Position numbers and translations under genes: made by a program
In this document: piece after piece, positions 5,689 to 16,198 of the stretch
How the letters are laid out: each line of letters starts with the position of its first letter
Numbering within the stretch: the stretch's first letter is position 1
The notes under the pieces: generated by a model
Databases searched by the model: none
Seen by the model: the letters and a program-made list of their open reading frames with translations, nothing else
Told to the model about the DNA's origin: nothing
Source: Streptantibioticus silvisoli
GTDB taxonomy: Bacteria > Actinomycetota > Actinomycetes > Streptomycetales > Streptomycetaceae
Direction: 5' to 3'
Assembly: GCF_027947535.2 (NCBI RefSeq)
Contig: NZ_JAAGKO020000065.1
Span: 1-35,500, forward strand
DNA: 35,500 bases

Positions 5689-8502
<2,814 letters not shown>

Positions 8503-8752: not shown

Positions 8753-9172
8753 ATGGGCCTGAGCATCCGCAACCAGTTCCCCGGCACGATCACCGGCGTC
8801 ACCGCGGGTGAGGCGATGGCGGTGGTGACGACCCGGCTCACCGGCGGCCAGGACCTCACCGCCGCGATCACCCGCGAGGCCGTCGACGCGTTCGGTCTCG
8901 CCGAGGGCACCCGGGTGCGGGCGCTGGTGAAGTCCACCGAGATCTCGCTCGCCACCGGCCCGCTGACCGGGATCTCCATCCGCAACCAGTTCGCCGGCAC
9001 CGTCGACCGCATCACCCGCGGCGAAGCGATGTCCACCGTCACCGTCACCCTCGACGGCACCACCCTCACCGCCGCCGTCACCACCGACTCCGTCCAGGAC
9101 CTGGGCCTCGCGGTCGGCACCTCCGTCGTGGCGCTGATCAAGTCGACGGACGTACTGCTGACGGTGGACTGA
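8753..9172 (+). CDS. Molybdate-binding Mop (TOBE) domain protein, two modules
   Basis: This encodes 139 residues made of two tandem Mop/TOBE modules, each opening with SIRNQF(P/A)GT and closing with AL(V/I)KSTEISLA or ALIKSTDVLL. This is the di-molbindin layout; such proteins bind molybdate or tungstate oxyanions in oligomers and act as cytoplasmic stores. The ATG is preceded by GAGAGG. About 284 bases separate it from geosmin synthase, including an AT-richer stretch (GGTTAAATCGTCTCAAATG) that may be its promoter. No molybdate transporter is visible nearby, so it stands alone. Confidence 0.9.
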   Translation: MGLSIRNQFPGTITGVTAGEAMAVVTTRLTGGQDLTAAITREAVDAFGLAEGTRVRALVKSTEISLATGPLTGISIRNQFAGTVDRITRGEAMSTVTVTLDGTTLTAAVTTDSVQDLGLAVGTSVVALIKSTDVLLTVD

Positions 9173-9460
9173 CGCGTCCGGGGGGGCGCGTCCGCTGGGG
9201 GGCGCGTCCGCTGGGGGGCGCGTCCGCGGGGGTGAGGTGGTCGCTGTGGGTGGGGCGGTCGCCGGGGGCGGGGCGGTCGCCGGGGAGAGGTCGTTGCTGG
9301 CGGGGAGGTCGCCGGGGTGGCTGCGGGCGGCGCGGGCGCTGCGGGCGGGGAGGCCCCTGGGAGCGGTCGCCGGCCGGTCGGCGCGGTCGCTGCGAGCTGC
9401 GGCGGGGGTCAACTCCCTTGGCGGAGGGGCCTCTTCAGGGCGCGTGCGCCACGCAGGCAT
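9173..9460. repeat. G-rich imperfect tandem repeats, no gene
   Basis: Three to four copies of a 17-bp G-rich unit (GGGGGGCGCGTCCGCTG type) lie at 9180-9235, followed by GGGGCGGTCGCCGGGG-type repeats to about 9300. It separates the Mop gene from the left end of the mobile element. Before the element inserted, its right part would have been just downstream of the tetR stop codon. Confidence 0.7.
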
Positions 9461-9462
9461 TA

Positions 9463-9481
9463 GGCACTGTCCTGGCGATCA
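9463..9481 (+). repeat. Left terminal inverted repeat of the transposon
   Basis: GGCACTGTCCTGGCGATCA, exact reverse complement of the right end. Including the flanking TA, the match is 21 bp. The stop codon of the caspase gene (TGA on the minus strand) is the inner three bases. Confidence 0.92.
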
Positions 9482-12400
9482 AGCCAGGCTGATGGGTACG
9501 GACGAGATATCGATCGCGAGGTAGCCCGAATCGGTTCCTGCGATGAGCAGCCCTCGGTGTTCCGCCAGCGCGCGTACATGGTCTTCCAGGGACAACTGGT
9601 GTGCAGTCCTGGTACGCGGGTTCCAGATCCGCACCGTCCCGTCGTCGCCGGCCGATGCGAGGCGGGCGGTGCCGTCGGGTGCGGTGAACGCCGCCACCGC
9701 CCACACCCAGCCGGTGTGGCCGGTGAGGGGCTCGCCGTCCTGGACCGCGGTGGCCGGGTTCCAGATCCGCACCGTCCCGTCGTCGCCGGCCGATGCGAGG
9801 CGGGGGGTGCCGTCGGGTGCGGTGAACGCCGCCACCGCCCGCACCCCGCCGGTGTGGCCGGTGAGGGGCTCGCCGTCCTGGACCCCGGTGGCCGGGTTCC
9901 AGATCCGCACCGTCCCGTCGTCGCCGGCCGATGCGAGGCGGGGGGTGCCGTCGGGTGCGGTGAACGCCGCCACCGCCAACACCCCGTCGGTGTGGCCGGT
10001 GAGGGGCTCGCCGTCCTGGACCGCGGTGGCCGGGTTCCAGATCCGCACCGTCCCGTCGTCGCCGGCCGATGCGAGGCGGGCGGTGCCGTCGGGTGCGGTG
10101 AACGCCGCCACCGCCCACACCCCGCCGCTGTGGCCGGTGAGCTGGAGGTGGAGCTGCCGCTGCTGGACGGCGCCGGCGCTCAGGGTTGGGGGCCATCCCT
10201 GGGGGTGGTGGGTGTGGGTTTCGGCAGGGGGCTGGGTGCCTTGGATGTAGGTGGTGCCAAGTCGGCGCCACCATCGGCGCCAGCCGAGCGTGTCGTTGTG
10301 GTCCTGCTGGCCGGGGCCGCTGTCGTGGGCGTGGTTCTGGAAGAGGACGGTTCCGGCGATGGCGGGCGGTACGTCGTTGGGGGGCAGGCCGCGGTGGAGG
10401 GTGTTGGTGGTGATGCCGGCGAGGTCGAGGGTGTCGAGGACGTCGGGGTGGCCGGCGAGTGCTTGGAGGGCTCCGGCGGTGTGGCCGAGGCGTGCGTGGG
10501 TGATGAGGTGGTGGCGGGTGTAGGGGCTGACGTCCTCGGGCCGGGTGCCGGCGGTGTCACTGTCGGGGTCCCGGGGCTGGAGGGTGCGGCGGGTGTGGCG
10601 GGTCAGGGCTGTGGTGATGGCGGCGTGGGCGGCGGGGGTGTCGGGTGCGGTGGTGAAGTGTTCGGTGAAGGTGCGGTGGGCGAGGCGGTAGACGCTCCGG
10701 CCGTGTTCCTGGTCGAGGGCGAGGTAGGGGGCGGCGTCGCGGACCAGGCCGGGGACGGCGGGGCCGGTGCCGGCCGCGCCGTCGGGGGTGAGGGCGTCGG
10801 CGGTGTGGGTCCAGATGCCGTCCTGGTCGGGTAGGCCGCGGCCCTGGGCGAGGCCGAGGGCCTGCAGGAGGGGGGTGTAGCGGGGGTCGGTGCGGTGGAG
10901 GCGTTCCAGGGCGCGGGTGAAGAGCTGGCGGTGGGTGCGGCCGATCAGGGGGGCAGGGTCGGCCAGGAGCGTGGGGTCGTTGAGGAGTTCGTGGGCGGCG
11001 AGACGCACGTAGAGGAACTGCTGCGGGGTGCCGCCGTCCTGCTGGTGGTCGGTGATGAGCCGGCGGACGGCGACGTCGATGGTCGCCTGGTCGGCATCCA
11101 GGGTTCCGCCCCGGCGGGCGGCGTGGAGTTTGGCGCTCAGGTAACCGGTGAGTGCGTCCTGGTTCTGCGTCACTTTGACGTCCCGCAGGTCGGCTCCGGT
11201 GCGGGGGCGCAGGGCGTCGAGGATGTCGGTGTCGGTGGGGGCGGGCCGGTCGGGGCCTTCGTGGGTGGAGCGGCGGGTGCCGATGATGATGCGGACGTTG
11301 GGGAGGTCGGCGAGGTGGCGCAGGAGGGTGTCGGTGAGGGTGAGGGGCTGTTCGGCCTCGTCGAGGGCGTCGAAGAGCAGGGTCAGTGGTGTGTGCCGGT
11401 GGTGGAGTCGTTCGAGGAGCCGGGCGGCGAGGTCGGCGGGAGGGGTGCCGTCGGCTGCTTCCCGGGCGAGGTCGGGCAGGCCGGCTGCCTGGGCGACGAG
11501 CTGGATGGTTCGGGTGAGGGTGAGGCCGGAGAGGTGGACGGTGAGGTCGAACGGATCGTCCGGGCAGGGGACGCCGGGTGGCAGGCGCTTCAGGTGGCCG
11601 TGGCGGATCAGGACGTCGCGCAGCTGGGTGCTGGTATGGAGGAGGATGTGGCCGAGGAGGGCTGATTTGCCGGCGCCGGCGGGGCCGGTGACGACGAGGG
11701 CGCCGTGGGTGGCGGTGGTCAGCCAGCGGAGGATCTCGTCGCGTTCCTCGGTGCGGCCGTGGAAGTACCAGGCGAGTTCGCCGAGTTCGGCGCCGGAGGC
11801 CTTGGGCAGGAAGTGTCGCTGTTCGTCGGCGGGGAGCCGGTCGATGACGGCCTGGAGTTCGGCGAGCTGGTCCAAGGGCGCGGAGAGGGCGGAAGCTGTG
11901 TCGGGGATCGTGCGGATCAGCTGGTCGCGGTGGTCGTCGACGCTCTCCGCGCGGTAGCCGTGCAGGTCGCGGGCGAGCTGGCTGCCGAGCTCGGCGAGGC
12001 CGATGGTCTTCCGTCCGCGGAAGGTGATGGCCAGGGCGTTTTTCAGGGCGCGGGTGAAGGCGCCGAGTTCGGTGGGGGCCTCGGCGGCGGTGGACAGCAG
12101 TAGGAACCGGTCGACGCGGTGGTGCTCGGCGATGAGGGTGCTGTGCACCTTGCGGGTGAAGTCCTTGGAGAAGCAGGCGTCCAGGACGACGATGGCCCAG
12201 CTGTTCTCCGCATCGGGGTGGAGCCGGCGGCTTCCGATGGCGCGGGCGACTTCCTCCGGGTGGACGCCGTCATCGATGGGGGACGGTGTGCGGTGATGGG
12301 CGAGGTGGGCGGCGCTGCCGTGGCCGACCCAGTAGAGGACCGTGTTGCCGCGGTGGGGAGCGGTGAGCCGTTTCCAGTCGCCGAGCCGCTCCTCGACGGC

Positions 12401-12640
12401 CTGCCGGTCCCGTTCGCCCTCCGGGACTGTCCACGCGTTGACGTGCAGGCCGTAGGGGGCGAGCAGGCCGGCGATCACCTGCACGTGGGTCTCGGTGTCC
12501 AGGTCGGGCAGGAGATCGTGCCGGGTGAAGTTCACCGGGAACAGTTCGATGCTGCCGCCCTCGGGGACCGGTCCGGGCATCTGGTGGCCGGTGCCGGCGG
12601 GAGCCGGGTGGGGCGTGCTGCCCGGGTGGGGGGTGGTCAT
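9479..12640 (-). CDS. Caspase-like protease / STAND NTPase / WD40-repeat protein
   Basis: This 1053-residue protein has three parts. Residues about 30-240 form a caspase-like (peptidase C14) domain with the His in YWVGHGS (H107) and the Cys in VVLDACFS (C156), the complete catalytic dyad. Residues about 290-560 form a STAND/NACHT-type NTPase, with Walker A GPAGAGKS (319-326) and Walker B LTLLFDALDE (419-428). A helical region follows, then four WD40 repeats (about 832-1015) that are nearly identical in DNA. There is no signal peptide, so it should be cytoplasmic. By family analogy, ligand binding by WD40 would release NTPase oligomerisation and activate the protease. It starts 17 bases after the hydrolase stop, so both are probably co-transcribed. 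The stop lies within the transposon end. The function is inferred, not shown. Confidence 0.92.
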   Translation of the reverse strand: MTTPHPGSTPHPAPAGTGHQMPGPVPEGGSIELFPVNFTRHDLLPDLDTETHVQVIAGLLAPYGLHVNAWTVPEGERDRQAVEERLGDWKRLTAPHRGNTVLYWVGHGSAAHLAHHRTPSPIDDGVHPEEVARAIGSRRLHPDAENSWAIVVLDACFSKDFTRKVHSTLIAEHHRVDRFLLLSTAAEAPTELGAFTRALKNALAITFRGRKTIGLAELGSQLARDLHGYRAESVDDHRDQLIRTIPDTASALSAPLDQLAELQAVIDRLPADEQRHFLPKASGAELGELAWYFHGRTEERDEILRWLTTATHGALVVTGPAGAGKSALLGHILLHTSTQLRDVLIRHGHLKRLPPGVPCPDDPFDLTVHLSGLTLTRTIQLVAQAAGLPDLAREAADGTPPADLAARLLERLHHRHTPLTLLFDALDEAEQPLTLTDTLLRHLADLPNVRIIIGTRRSTHEGPDRPAPTDTDILDALRPRTGADLRDVKVTQNQDALTGYLSAKLHAARRGGTLDADQATIDVAVRRLITDHQQDGGTPQQFLYVRLAAHELLNDPTLLADPAPLIGRTHRQLFTRALERLHRTDPRYTPLLQALGLAQGRGLPDQDGIWTHTADALTPDGAAGTGPAVPGLVRDAAPYLALDQEHGRSVYRLAHRTFTEHFTTAPDTPAAHAAITTALTRHTRRTLQPRDPDSDTAGTRPEDVSPYTRHHLITHARLGHTAGALQALAGHPDVLDTLDLAGITTNTLHRGLPPNDVPPAIAGTVLFQNHAHDSGPGQQDHNDTLGWRRWWRRLGTTYIQGTQPPAETHTHHPQGWPPTLSAGAVQQRQLHLQLTGHSGGVWAVAAFTAPDGTARLASAGDDGTVRIWNPATAVQDGEPLTGHTDGVLAVAAFTAPDGTPRLASAGDDGTVRIWNPATGVQDGEPLTGHTGGVRAVAAFTAPDGTPRLASAGDDGTVRIWNPATAVQDGEPLTGHTGWVWAVAAFTAPDGTARLASAGDDGTVRIWNPRTRTAHQLSLEDHVRALAEHRGLLIAGTDSGYLAIDISSVPISLA
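9612..10139. repeat. Four 138-bp near-identical WD40-coding repeats
   Basis: Units recur with exact 138-base spacing (TTCCAGATCC at 9621, 9759, 9897 and 10035), that is 46 residues each. Differences are confined to a few bases, for example TAVQ/TGVQ and the residue pair following the GHT motif. The fourth unit is complete to about 10139, then the sequence diverges into the inter-domain region. Confidence 0.95.
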
Positions 12641-12657
12641 GGGAGGGGCGGCCGGGG

Positions 12658-14190
12658 TCAGGCGTCGGGTGCGGTGACGAGGACGAGCTGGGTGAGGGGT
12701 GTGTGGCGGCCGGTGTCCAGGGTGACCTGGTATAGGTCGGGGGCGTCCGCGGTGAACCGGGCCGACAGGGCTCCGTCGGTGCGGTCGGGGTCGCGGCGCA
12801 GGGTCAGGGGGTGGCCGGGGTGGCTGGTGGTCGCCGAGCGCACACTCAGACTCACGCCGGCTGGGGTGTCCAGTCCAGTGACGGTGAGGGTCAGCGGCTG
12901 TCCGAGGGTCCCGCCGAGGTGAGGGGTCTCCAGGCCGGGCCCGTGGCCGGTGCCGTCGCCGAGGTCGGTGCCCCGGGGGCGTTCCAGTGCGATCCGGCGG
13001 ATCTGGCGCAGGACCTCCTGGTGGCGCATCAGTGCGCCGTGCTGGCCGAACACGTAGGCGGGTGCCGGGGCTCCGGCCTGTGCGGAGGGCAGGTGGACGG
13101 TGCTGTCGCCGGAGGCGTCGCGGCGGGCGGGGATACCGGTGGCCGGGTCCCGCCCGAGTTCACCGTCGTCGCGGATGTCGAAGGCGTAGTAGCGGCCCTC
13201 GACGACCGAGGGGTCGGTGTGCCGTTCCTCCAGGGTCTGGACGGTCGGCTGGGCCTCGCCGACGATCGCCCGATGGCCCGGCAGCGCGAACCAACTCGAG
13301 CGGTGGCGCGCGTGCTCGGCCAGGGAGCGGGCGGCCAAGTGCGGGTCACCGCCGAAGCGGGCGACATGCCCGGGGGTGAGGCGCTCCACGTCCAGGCCTC
13401 GGTCCAGGCAGCGGTAGCCGGGCAGCAGGTCGTGGACACCGGGCAGGGTCGCCGCCATCGCCTGCACCCGGCGCACCACCCGGCCCGGCCTCGCCTGGGC
13501 GTGCAAGAGGTTGAGTGCCAGGACGGACTTCGCCGAACCCAGGAACGGCGTCCCGACGGTGACCACGGCCCGGGTGTCGGCCGCGAGCTCCGGGTCCTGC
13601 TCCAGCGCGGCCCGCACCACCAGCCCGCCCATCGAGTGCGCCACGAACAGCAGCCTCGGCCGCGCCTCGCCGGCCGCCCGCCACTCAGGCACCGCCGCCA
13701 CCCGCTCCCGCCACCGCTCCAGATGCGCACGGGCCGCGCGGGCCAGCAGCGCACCGTTGTAGGAGACCGCCAGGCGCCAGTCGTAGGGGAACGGCGCCAC
13801 CGCCTCCCGGGCCAGAACGACCTTCTCCAACTCCTCGACCGCCTTGCTGTAGGGGTCGAGGCCCTGGAAGACGGGCAGCCACCACGGCCTGGCCAGCAGC
13901 CCGGCCGCCCGGACGCGGGTCAGCGGCGCCCGCCGGGCGGTCTCGGCATCGGCCCCCTGCTCCCGGGTGTCCGCCCGAAGGGCGGCGAACGGGCCCTCCC
14001 CGCTCCGCGCACCGGTCAGCATCCTGAGGTCGACGCCCCACAGCGGGCGGCCCGTCGCGGTGTCCTCCAGGACGCTGCCCATGATGCCCGGCACCACCAC
14101 GCACGCGTCCCGGGTGCGGTCCTCGAATACCGGCACCGCCCCCGCGAACGGAACCCCGCGCACCGACCCGTCGGCCCCCACCATCCCCAT
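12658..14190 (-). CDS. LCAT-like serine hydrolase with C-terminal beta domain
   Basis: This is an alpha/beta hydrolase of the lecithin:cholesterol acyltransferase-like type. Visible are the oxyanion strand VVVPGIMGSVL, the family motif FPYDWRL, the nucleophile elbow VAHSMGGLV (Ser186), the acid in SGDSTVHLPS (Asp362) and the histidine in FGQHGALMRH (His384), so the triad is complete. The last ~90 residues look like a beta-sandwich. No signal peptide is seen, so a cytoplasmic location or action at the inner membrane face is likely. The start is uncertain: ATG at 14190, ATG at 14184 or TTG at 14202. TATTGT lies 8 bases before the ATG at 14190, hinting at leaderless expression. It is followed after 17 bases by the caspase gene. 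Substrate (phospholipid or other ester) unknown. Confidence 0.88.
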   Translation of the reverse strand: MGMVGADGSVRGVPFAGAVPVFEDRTRDACVVVPGIMGSVLEDTATGRPLWGVDLRMLTGARSGEGPFAALRADTREQGADAETARRAPLTRVRAAGLLARPWWLPVFQGLDPYSKAVEELEKVVLAREAVAPFPYDWRLAVSYNGALLARAARAHLERWRERVAAVPEWRAAGEARPRLLFVAHSMGGLVVRAALEQDPELAADTRAVVTVGTPFLGSAKSVLALNLLHAQARPGRVVRRVQAMAATLPGVHDLLPGYRCLDRGLDVERLTPGHVARFGGDPHLAARSLAEHARHRSSWFALPGHRAIVGEAQPTVQTLEERHTDPSVVEGRYYAFDIRDDGELGRDPATGIPARRDASGDSTVHLPSAQAGAPAPAYVFGQHGALMRHQEVLRQIRRIALERPRGTDLGDGTGHGPGLETPHLGGTLGQPLTLTVTGLDTPAGVSLSVRSATTSHPGHPLTLRRDPDRTDGALSARFTADAPDLYQVTLDTGRHTPLTQLVLVTAPDA

Positions 14191-14354
14191 GCCGAACGAC
14201 AATAGAGGAGCACACCCGCCCGGGTACGGGCTTCACCGAAGAAGAACACTCCCGGGCCGTCGTGCGCCGCAACGGCCCTCCTCCCCGACCCGCCACCCCG
14301 GGCACCGGAGCACCTGATGGCACACCGGCGGCCGGGTGGACCGTTGGCAGTGCC

Positions 14355-15266
14355 GTGGAAGCCAGGGGTGATCTGGCCGATGCCCAGTGGGCGCGGATCG
14401 AGCCGTTGCTGCCGGTGAGCAGCGGGCGGTGCGGGCGGTGGCGCGACCACCGGCAGGTGGTGAACGGGGTACTGCACCGGATCCGCACCGGTGTTCCGTG
14501 GCGGGATCTGCCCGAGCGGTACGGGCCCTTGAAGACGGTGCACGAGCGGCACCGTCGCTGGTCGGCGGACGGTACCTGGCCGATGCTCCTGGAGCGCATC
14601 CAGGCCCAGGAGGACGCTGCCGGGACCATCGACTGGGACATTTCGGTCGACTCGACGGTCGTGCGTGCGCATCACCACGCCGCCGGCGCCCTGCACACCC
14701 CGCCACCCGCGCCCGGCACAGGCCGCACCACTGGCCGGTCCGGGGCCGATCGGCCGGCGGGCGGCGGCGGAGCTGCGGGCGAGGCACTCGGCCGCTCACG
14801 CGGCGGCTTCACGACCAAAATCCACCTGAGCGCGGACGGTCGCTGCCGGATCCTGTCGCTGGTCATCACACCGGGACAGCACGCCGACTGCACCCAGTTC
14901 GAACCGGTCATGGACAAGATCCGCGTCTCCAGGCTCACCACGGGCAGACCTCGCACCACGCCGGACAGCGTCAGTGCCGACAAGGGCTACTCCAACCGGC
15001 GAACCCGCCGCTACCTGCGCAGACGCGGTACACCGCACGTCATCCCCGAGAAGGCCGACCAGGCTGCCAATCGCACCCGACGCGGCAGGGCCGGCGGTAG
15101 GCCACCAGGATTCGACCAGGACCGCTACAAGAAGCGCAACACCGTCGAACGAGCGATCAACAGACTCAAGGCTTTCCGCGCCGTCGCCGCCAGGTTTGAC
15201 AAACGTGCCTACGTCTACCTCGGTACCGTCACTGCGGCAGCCCTCGCCATCTGGCTCCGCTCATGA
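14355..15266 (+). CDS. IS5-family DDE transposase
   Basis: This encodes 303 residues from a GTG start giving VEARGDLADAQWARIEPLLP, the usual N-terminus of this group; the frame stays open further upstream without homology. The helix-turn-helix-like region VVNGVLHRIRTGVPWRDLPERYG is followed by the catalytic triad: Asp in DISVDSTVVRAH (D99), Asp in SADKGYSN, and Glu in the signature KKRNTVERAINRLK. All three are present and the frame is unbroken, so the enzyme could be active. The stop codon lies in the right terminal repeat. It diverges from the hydrolase gene across about 160 bases, so the two may share a control region. Confidence 0.95.
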   Translation: MEARGDLADAQWARIEPLLPVSSGRCGRWRDHRQVVNGVLHRIRTGVPWRDLPERYGPLKTVHERHRRWSADGTWPMLLERIQAQEDAAGTIDWDISVDSTVVRAHHHAAGALHTPPPAPGTGRTTGRSGADRPAGGGGAAGEALGRSRGGFTTKIHLSADGRCRILSLVITPGQHADCTQFEPVMDKIRVSRLTTGRPRTTPDSVSADKGYSNRRTRRYLRRRGTPHVIPEKADQAANRTRRGRAGGRPPGFDQDRYKKRNTVERAINRLKAFRAVAARFDKRAYVYLGTVTAAALAIWLRS

Positions 15267-15282
15267 TCGCCAGGACAGTGCC
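15264..15282 (-). repeat. Right terminal inverted repeat of the transposon
   Basis: Exact inverted copy of the left end. The transposase stop TGA is its inner three bases. The outer G together with the flanking TA forms the present TAG stop codon of tetR on the minus strand. Confidence 0.92.
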
Positions 15283-16166
15283 TAGGTCGGGCGGGCCGCG
15301 CAGGCGTTCCGGGCGGCCGCCAGGATCTCCTCCGACAGCGGTGATCCGTGGGTGGCACGGGCGAGCAGCAGGGCACCGACGAGCGTGCTGAGGGTGACGA
15401 GCGCTTCGGGGTCCAGGGGGGCGCCGTCAGCGGGGGCCCGGGCAGCCTCGGCGCCCGCCACCGCGCCGGGGTCGACGGGGGCGCCGTCAGCGGGGGCCAC
15501 CGGGACGACCGTACCGGCACCCATATCCGCTCCGGCGTCGGCGACCGCGTCCGCTCCGGCGTCGGCGACCGCTCCGGCGCCAGCATCCGCACCGCCGCCA
15601 GCAACCGCACCAGCACCCGCACCGCCAGCACCCGCACCGGCACCCGCACCCGCACCGGCACCGCCGCCAGCAACCGCACCGGCACCCGCATCCGCACCGC
15701 CCACCACCGCACCCGCACCCGCACCCCCCTCCCCATGCTCCATGACCCACCTCGCGAAGTGGCGGACGCCCTGCGCGTAGCGGGAGCGGGCCGGGCCGGG
15801 GGCGGAGCGGGCCATGTCGGAGGCGAAGCCGGCCGTGGGGCAGCCGGCGCCGGGGTCGTCGCGGTGGGCGGTGGACAGGTAGTGGGCGATCAGTTCCGCA
15901 CGGGCGGCGCCGGGGTCACCGGGGTGCCGGGCGTCGAACTCGGCCAGTGAGCCGCCGAGTTCGCTGAAGCCCGCCTCGGTGGCCTCCGCCTGGAGCGCGT
16001 CCTTGGAGGCGAACTGCTTGTAGAAGCCGCCGTGGGTGAGGCCGGCGGCCTTCATCAGGTCGGCGACGCTGACGTTGTGCGCGCCCTGCTCCCGGAACAG
16101 GTGGGACGCGGCGGCCACGACCTGCTGCCGGTTCTCCTCCGCCTGCGCACGTGACACCCGGCCCAC
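15282..16166 (-). CDS. TetR-family regulator with a large Gly/Ala/Asp-rich insert
   Basis: This encodes 294 residues. The N-terminal HTH is typical (QQVVAAASHLFREQGAHNVSVADLMKAAGLTHGGFYKQFASKDAL). The ligand-binding domain follows, but between about residues 150 and 245 it is interrupted by a low-complexity stretch of GAGAGAGAGG, ADAGADAVADAGAD and similar. The C-terminal helix VTLSTLVGALLLARATHG then resumes. Without the insert it would be about 195 residues, the normal size. The GTG at 16166 gives MGRVSRAQAEEN; GTG at 16175 is an alternative. It diverges from the SDR gene and probably represses it. The transposon sits exactly at its stop codon without changing the protein. Confidence 0.88.
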   Translation of the reverse strand: MGRVSRAQAEENRQQVVAAASHLFREQGAHNVSVADLMKAAGLTHGGFYKQFASKDALQAEATEAGFSELGGSLAEFDARHPGDPGAARAELIAHYLSTAHRDDPGAGCPTAGFASDMARSAPGPARSRYAQGVRHFARWVMEHGEGGAGAGAVVGGADAGAGAVAGGGAGAGAGAGAGAGGAGAGAVAGGGADAGAGAVADAGADAVADAGADMGAGTVVPVAPADGAPVDPGAVAGAEAARAPADGAPLDPEALVTLSTLVGALLLARATHGSPLSEEILAAARNACAARPT

Positions 16167-16198
16167 CGCGCCCACCGCCCTTCAACCGTTCCATCATT

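Follow-up and report, generated by a model that had tools for sequence, protein, structure and literature searches.

A 5.8-kb unit of Streptantibioticus silvisoli, probably an IS5-family transporter IS with NLR-like cargo

Does the insertion sequence (IS) at this locus carry the two large genes beside it as cargo, or does it only adjoin them? The window, i.e. the whole stretch of DNA that was analysed, is one whole contig of 35,500 bp from Streptantibioticus silvisoli, whose draft genome (8.7 Mb, 130 contigs) is the one genome covering its genus here. It contains a 5.8-kb unit with inverted ends that are perfect over 19 bp (GGCACTGTCCTGGCGATCA at 9463-9481 on the plus strand and at 15264-15282 on the minus strand, 19/19); because TA lies outside both 19-bp ends, the match comes to 21/21 when it is counted, and the TA that flanks the unit on both sides also belongs to the inverted repeat. 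Short terminal inverted repeats with TA borders are present both in this unit and in its IS relatives. Both the transposase and the WD40 gene terminate in a stop codon made up of the inner three bases of the adjoining end. A sequence-only reading of this DNA had described perfect 19-bp ends with TA outside each, two large passenger genes inside and an intact IS5-type DDE transposase at the right end, and all of this is borne out (Table 1), the passengers being a hydrolase gene and a caspase-like/NTPase/WD40 gene on the minus strand, and the transposase an open reading frame with a score of 269.2 bits against the NCBIfam model transpos_IS5_3 (NF033580, cut-off 110).

Table 1. Features of the S. 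silvisoli unit (positions in the window) and passenger-carrying relatives of its IS
Feature	Position or loci	Strand	Basis
Left end, TA + 19-bp inverted repeat	9461..9481	+	21/21 inverted match to right end
Passenger 2, caspase-like/STAND NTPase/WD40 protein, 1053 aa, stop codon in left end	9479..12640	-	Pfam AAA_16, NPHP3_N, WD40; motifs
Passenger 1, LCAT-like serine hydrolase, at most 514 aa, AHSMGG motif, start codon uncertain	12658..14202	-	Pfam LCAT; alignments of 7 and 8 relatives
IS5-family transposase, single open frame	14262..15266	+	NF033580 (transpos_IS5_3), 269.2 bits
Expected site of a plain-copy inner left end, not recognisable (9/21)	14314..14334	+	Comparison with plain relatives
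Right end, 19-bp inverted repeat + TA	15264..15284	-	21/21 inverted match to left end
Nitroreductase-carrying 1.76-kb IS relatives	L046, L048, L049, L050, L184 (partial L104)

In the draft genome the end sequence occurs at 13 sites with at most 3 mismatches (the two ends of the unit with 0, one site with 2 and ten with 3), and a backwards control of the same search gave 0 sites. No second copy of the unit was found there. Exact 21/21 copies of the end are also present in two other genomes, G061 and G302 (L100 at ~8336; L101 at ~6974); no transposase of the S. silvisoli lineage was found beside these solo ends, and in G302 a 54% transposase lies 4.3 kb away.

The transposase, which also matches Pfam DUF4096 and DDE_Tnp_1, is a member of the IS5 family by virtue of a DDE transposase score above the curated cut-off, and its true start is likely the GTG at 14355. 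The label "IS427 group" rests on the ends, the TA and the frameshift anatomy; the S. silvisoli transposase is in one frame only, without the frameshift two-frame layout that is common, though not universal, in that group and that is seen in the plain relatives G014 and G208. Its best matches beyond S. silvisoli, among 394 genomes of the family, have 80-81% identity over ~915 bp, and the transposase lineage is under purifying selection (dN 0.146 and dS 0.825 against G131).

Whether the passengers lie inside the element depends on its left end. In G014 and G208 the left end is found 56 bp upstream of a reference point in the start of the transposase, and at the equivalent distance in S. silvisoli (14314) 9 of 21 positions agree, a level reached by 9.5% of the 21-mers of the region. 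A decayed inner end had been suspected in the unit by eye and was rejected, 9/21 being not above chance. When the two ends themselves are set aside, no 21-mer from 9000 to 15800 comes closer than 6 mismatches, the best one lying at 14061 within the hydrolase gene. No second inner end is therefore recognisable, in agreement with the sequence-only reading, which had seen none near the transposase; that reading had also named a 1-kb copy of the same IS as an observation that would speak against capture, and none was seen in the genome, where the best other match to the IS is 67%. Comparison with the plain relatives suggests that an inner left end was once present in the unit.

The passenger genes are thus located between the ends of a single IS without a second usable inner end, which is the anatomy of a transporter IS, and not between two IS copies as in a composite transposon, there being one transposase and only 21 bp at the left. 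We consider the unit to be probably a transporter IS of an IS5/IS427-like kind with NLR-like cargo. An IS5-family (IS427-like) element, normally of ~1 kb, would have come to use a second end beyond the neighbouring gene pair and would have lost its own inner left end, leaving the transposase with two 21-bp ends 5.8 kb apart, roughly sixfold the customary length, and TA at each border; the transposase would then have moved the whole unit, and may still do so.

The relatives of this IS offer a measure of how such a change might occur. Ends were measured at 22 related transposase loci, half of which (11/22) have an inner left end and are plain IS, 985-1019 bp long, while four are elements of 1759-1762 bp with a nitroreductase gene in the same layout, two show other end pairings (2322 and 2336 bp), and five lack a readable end. 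The nine best transposase loci (L044-L052) comprise three plain and four nitroreductase elements, one unit from G068 and one locus without a readable left end. With a fifth copy found beyond the four among the measured loci, complete nitroreductase elements number five in four genomes (G337, on two contigs, G344, G385 and G131), and G385 holds an additional partial copy. The passenger (227 aa; Pfam PF00881, 102 bits in the one copy tested) is divergent from the transposase, and its stop codon, at element positions 35-38, lies immediately inside the left end. The copies are 88-97% identical to one another, and no other common stretch of more than 300 bp was found between the five loci; as the copies lie in differing surroundings, this group of IS does carry passengers and, on the evidence of the copies, would also move them. 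The inner left end of three copies retains 13, 11 and 12 of 21 positions (chance of such matches in the S. silvisoli window region 0.0005, 0.0156 and 0.0043, respectively), and that of the remaining two retains 4 ungapped, or ~14 with a one-base gap in a by-eye count. Around the G385 copy L049 the sequence forms a perfect palindrome, with the element at its central TA. In Streptomyces sp. NBC_00455, a plasmid has an annotated nitroreductase gene adjoining such a transposase, with a right end found and a left end not found at that locus. The S. silvisoli unit can be placed in a series running from the plain IS, through the nitroreductase carrier with a half-decayed inner end, to the 5.8-kb unit without an inner end, a natural series that would show how an ordinary IS can be turned into a carrier of cargo.

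A different history would make the unit the remnant of a composite transposon: the genes would originally have had an IS copy on either side, of which the left was later deleted except for its outer end and the right no longer has its inner end. An arrangement of this kind is found in G068, where a 2.3-kb unit (L093, 5949-8270) consists of one IS and an inverted piece of a second around two other genes, presumably cupin and TetR genes to judge from their translations; one inner end of this unit is preserved at 16/21. At the left end of S. silvisoli and of the two genomes with the best-preserved corresponding ends (G009 and Kitasatospora griseola, see below), however, no IS sequence beyond 21 bp was recognised, and we consider this history unlikely. 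Such a remnant may no longer move as a unit, and differs from a transporter IS mainly in its history.

The gene pair itself is found in at least seven other genomes among the 394 of the family, and G180 has a further, partial match of 413 bp. All cargo counts are lower bounds, as the search of the family listed only part of its matches, scoring no more than one or two candidates per genome in most cases, and two short peptide patterns served for the protein scan. An alignment scan of 84,980 species genomes gave at least 43 hydrolase loci, six of them at 64-82% identity (K. griseola, K. paracochleata, Kitasatospora sp. SolWspMP-SS2h, K. phosalacinea, and Streptomyces sp. CBMA156 and SPB162), followed by Actinomadura soli at 37%. 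The seventh genome with the pair, G009, has its hydrolase split over two frames. Among viral contigs, 19 stretches matched a peptide pattern, with no hydrolase relatives among them. The distant protein of A. soli ends at about the same alignment point as the WD40 gene product, and the IS end therefore coincides with the gene's natural 3' end.

At the stop codon of the WD40 gene, a left end is preserved to differing degrees. G009 has an end of 20/21 with TA, without a transposase at the cargo locus, and K. griseola an end of 17/21 together with a dead transposase remnant; a check for the same ends and cargo at other loci thus recovered these two partial counterparts and no intact copy. K. paracochleata retains the inner 9 bases of the end only, and K. 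phosalacinea the inner 6, a weak match in which three bases are the stop codon, and after which the sequence is presumably the end of another IS. No end was found at this point in CBMA156 and SPB162, while the SolWspMP-SS2h contig stops before the WD40 stop codon, leaving any end there unreadable. Four of the seven other loci thus have at best a short piece of the end. In the flanks beyond the cargo, the eight loci have nothing of more than 120 bp in common apart from the transposase remnant in K. griseola and a stretch of 857 bp that K. paracochleata and K. phosalacinea share at differing relative positions. A CRISPR array suspected beside the G009 cargo was rejected, there being only two 27-bp repeats, 114 bp apart.

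The surroundings in S. silvisoli comprise a two-domain terpene synthase gene (5898-8468, Pfam Terpene_syn_C_2) and a double TOBE-domain gene (8753-9172) to the left of the element and, to the right, a gene for a TetR-type regulator (15282-16175, minus strand) with a long Gly/Ala-rich repeat, whose stop codon is formed at the right border of the element. A left-flank search of 120 relatives matched 40, and among the matches listed only the TOBE region of the query was covered; in 19 non-self flank loci (1.5 kb on each side) neither TetR nor terpene synthase was matched at E ≤ 1e-5, and no empty site was found. Cargo genes at this locus without the transposase or ends, the other observation that the sequence-only reading had named against capture, were not seen: no cargo relative was found here, though the neighbourhood is too poorly conserved in relatives for a proper comparison.

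In K. griseola the gene pair is 79.4% identical to that of S. silvisoli over 4638 bp, and the transposase fragment (a 291-bp piece, truncated on both sides and no longer open) lies directly beside the hydrolase gene in the same orientation as in S. silvisoli. It scores 260 bits against the S. silvisoli transposase (79.1% over 306 bp) versus at most 122 bits against 26 other IS loci, to which its identity over at least 300 bp is 66-69%, with higher values for shorter pieces (L062, 85.9% over 92 bp). The two group together with local support 1.000 (FastTree, 21 sequences), and both have lost the AAAGGGG frameshift stretch and neighbouring bases, which are kept in seven other IS compared. On common columns the S. 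silvisoli transposase is 80.1% identical to K. griseola, 78.4% to L051 and 77.8% to L047; since it is nearly as close to the plain IS, the grouping rests on the nearness of K. griseola to S. silvisoli and on the shared deletion. That cargo and transposase have diverged to an equal degree carries little weight by itself because a dead fragment keeps no clock, and such a fragment and a selected operon run on different clocks. The plainest reading, suggested by these comparisons, is that a single unit, inherited or transferred as such, would now occupy unrelated positions in two genera; that a rare IS lineage inserted twice next to the same gene pair is conceivable but less likely.

These copies bear on a further alternative, in which an ordinary IS beside the pair lost its left end, the left repeat is the leftover of another insertion, and the pair was spread by plasmids or recombination. 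Most other copies of the pair are indeed without a transposase and full ends, and distant relatives of the hydrolase are present on 25 plasmid records (20 of them Streptomyces; 33-44% identity among the 20 matches listed). The end nevertheless occupies one identical position in the WD40 gene of S. silvisoli, G009 and K. griseola, and the fragment in K. griseola belongs to the transposase lineage of S. silvisoli, so a coincidence of neighbours appears distinctly improbable. An assembly artefact at one junction, conceivable in a draft genome where the window is a whole contig and four near-identical 138-bp WD repeats may be collapsed, is scarcely credible, given that the left junction agrees with the independent G009 and K. 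griseola assemblies and that the right end is in its usual place after the transposase, as in the plain relatives.

The transporter IS reading thus retains the first part of the original proposal, that the pair was captured by an IS and moves as cargo: the pair is bounded by two ends of one IS, K. griseola has the pair with a worn end and a related remnant, and the nitroreductase relatives provide a parallel, while movement of the unit is something we infer. Its extension, that capture by an IS explains the spread of such systems among actinobacteria, is not sustained, most of the seven other loci being without complete ends or a transposase.

As for the cargo, the hydrolase gene and the large gene follow one another on the minus strand 17 bp apart and likely form one operon. 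The hydrolase scores 40.5 bits against Pfam LCAT (cut-off 21), and a PDB sequence search matched ~50 of its residues to a lipase (E 6.8e-6) and to group XV phospholipase A2 (E 0.0032); its predicted structure has a mean pLDDT of 55.9, too low to use. The large protein matches AAA_16 (38.5 bits, cut-off 32.6), NPHP3_N (31.4 bits, cut-off 24.8) and WD40 above their cut-offs, and is a STAND/NLR-like NTPase, with an NTPase domain above cut-off and a WD40 repeat sensor; a PDB sequence search with its residues 1-808 gave no match. The putative caspase assignment is based on the motifs YWVGHG and DACFS, present with GPAGAGKS in relatives and in the S. silvisoli translation, and on a weak match to the EACC1-associated caspase model of NCBIfam (27.7 bits, below the family cut-off of 140); no caspase family is listed in the Pfam results for the passengers, and neither matched a PADLOC model at E ≤ 0.01. 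Compared with K. griseola, dN and dS are 0.109 and 0.300 for the hydrolase, and 0.228 and 0.438 for the first 800 residues of the large protein.

At 9608-10141 lie four WD units of 46 aa (138 bp) that are 95-96% alike in DNA. This number, against 11-14 units in six relatives, reflects either contraction or collapse in assembly. In 74 filtered units from six proteins with at least 6 units each, positions 4, 5, 6, 8, 27 and 44 vary most (entropy 1.9-2.1 bits) and positions 17-19, 31, 32, 34 and 36 are near-invariant (≤0.2 bits), a pattern that would fit a diversifying sensor. In each of the three plasmid records examined among those with a distant hydrolase relative (L149, L150 and L151, all Streptomyces), the LCAT-like hydrolase gene diverges from a separate ATP-binding gene and from a WD40 gene, the latter annotated as "benzoate transporter" in two, and is accompanied by an XRE regulator in 3/3 and a RES-domain gene in 2/3; Pfam NTPase and WD40 matches were confirmed in the two cassettes tested.

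The caspase-like motifs, NTPase and WD40 repeats together resemble NLR-like conflict proteins, and by this analogy the cargo could be a conflict module with the WD40 repeats as sensor, the NTPase as the assembling part and the caspase-like domain as effector, which might act together with the hydrolase or upon it to arrest or kill the cell, a role that we find plausible yet somewhat doubtful. More tentatively still, one IS5-type lineage in Streptomycetaceae may repeatedly make neighbouring genes its cargo, by recruitment of a distant end and decay of the inner end, and may in this way have given rise to an immunity transposon by which a complete NLR-like module is carried between genera. If so, one small transposase and two 21-bp ends would provide a minimal vehicle for moving NLR-like modules in multicellular bacteria.

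Among known systems, the cargo is closest in theme to the NTP-dependent conflict systems of multicellular prokaryotes, which, in the available part of PMC7159879, likewise combine a caspase-like domain, a STAND-type NTPase and an alpha/beta hydrolase partner. It differs from the systems described there in that vWA, MoxR and VMAP parts are not in its Pfam results, the EACC1-type caspase model is far below cut-off, and there is no PADLOC match. The element shares with the IS427 group an IS5-type transposase, TA borders and, in its plain relatives, a two-frame frameshift transposase. According to the available part of PMC3281130, IS427 elements mostly have 2-bp repeats, its IS427 rows give lengths of 832-865 bp, and a single-frame transposase is represented by one natural mutant; the S. 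silvisoli unit, in contrast, is 5.8 kb long with a single-frame transposase. IS1648 of plasmid SCP2 has ends that differ from those of S. silvisoli at 3 and 5 of 21 positions, and a length of 955 bp. The nitroreductase relatives share a passenger that is divergent from the transposase and ends just inside the left end, and a decayed inner left end, but carry a single 227-aa gene in 1.76 kb and occur in repeated copies. Transporter IS (tIS), described in the available parts of PMC9330008 and PMC7986276 as IS derivatives carrying passenger genes, likewise have one IS-type transposase and passengers between one pair of ends. These parts name no IS5-family example with such cargo, and a literature search, with most subscription journals outside its scope, found no report of an IS5-family element with such genes. 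Compared with the tIS described there, the S. silvisoli unit is set apart by 4.8 kb of NLR-like cargo and by ends acquired at the 3' terminus of a cargo gene.
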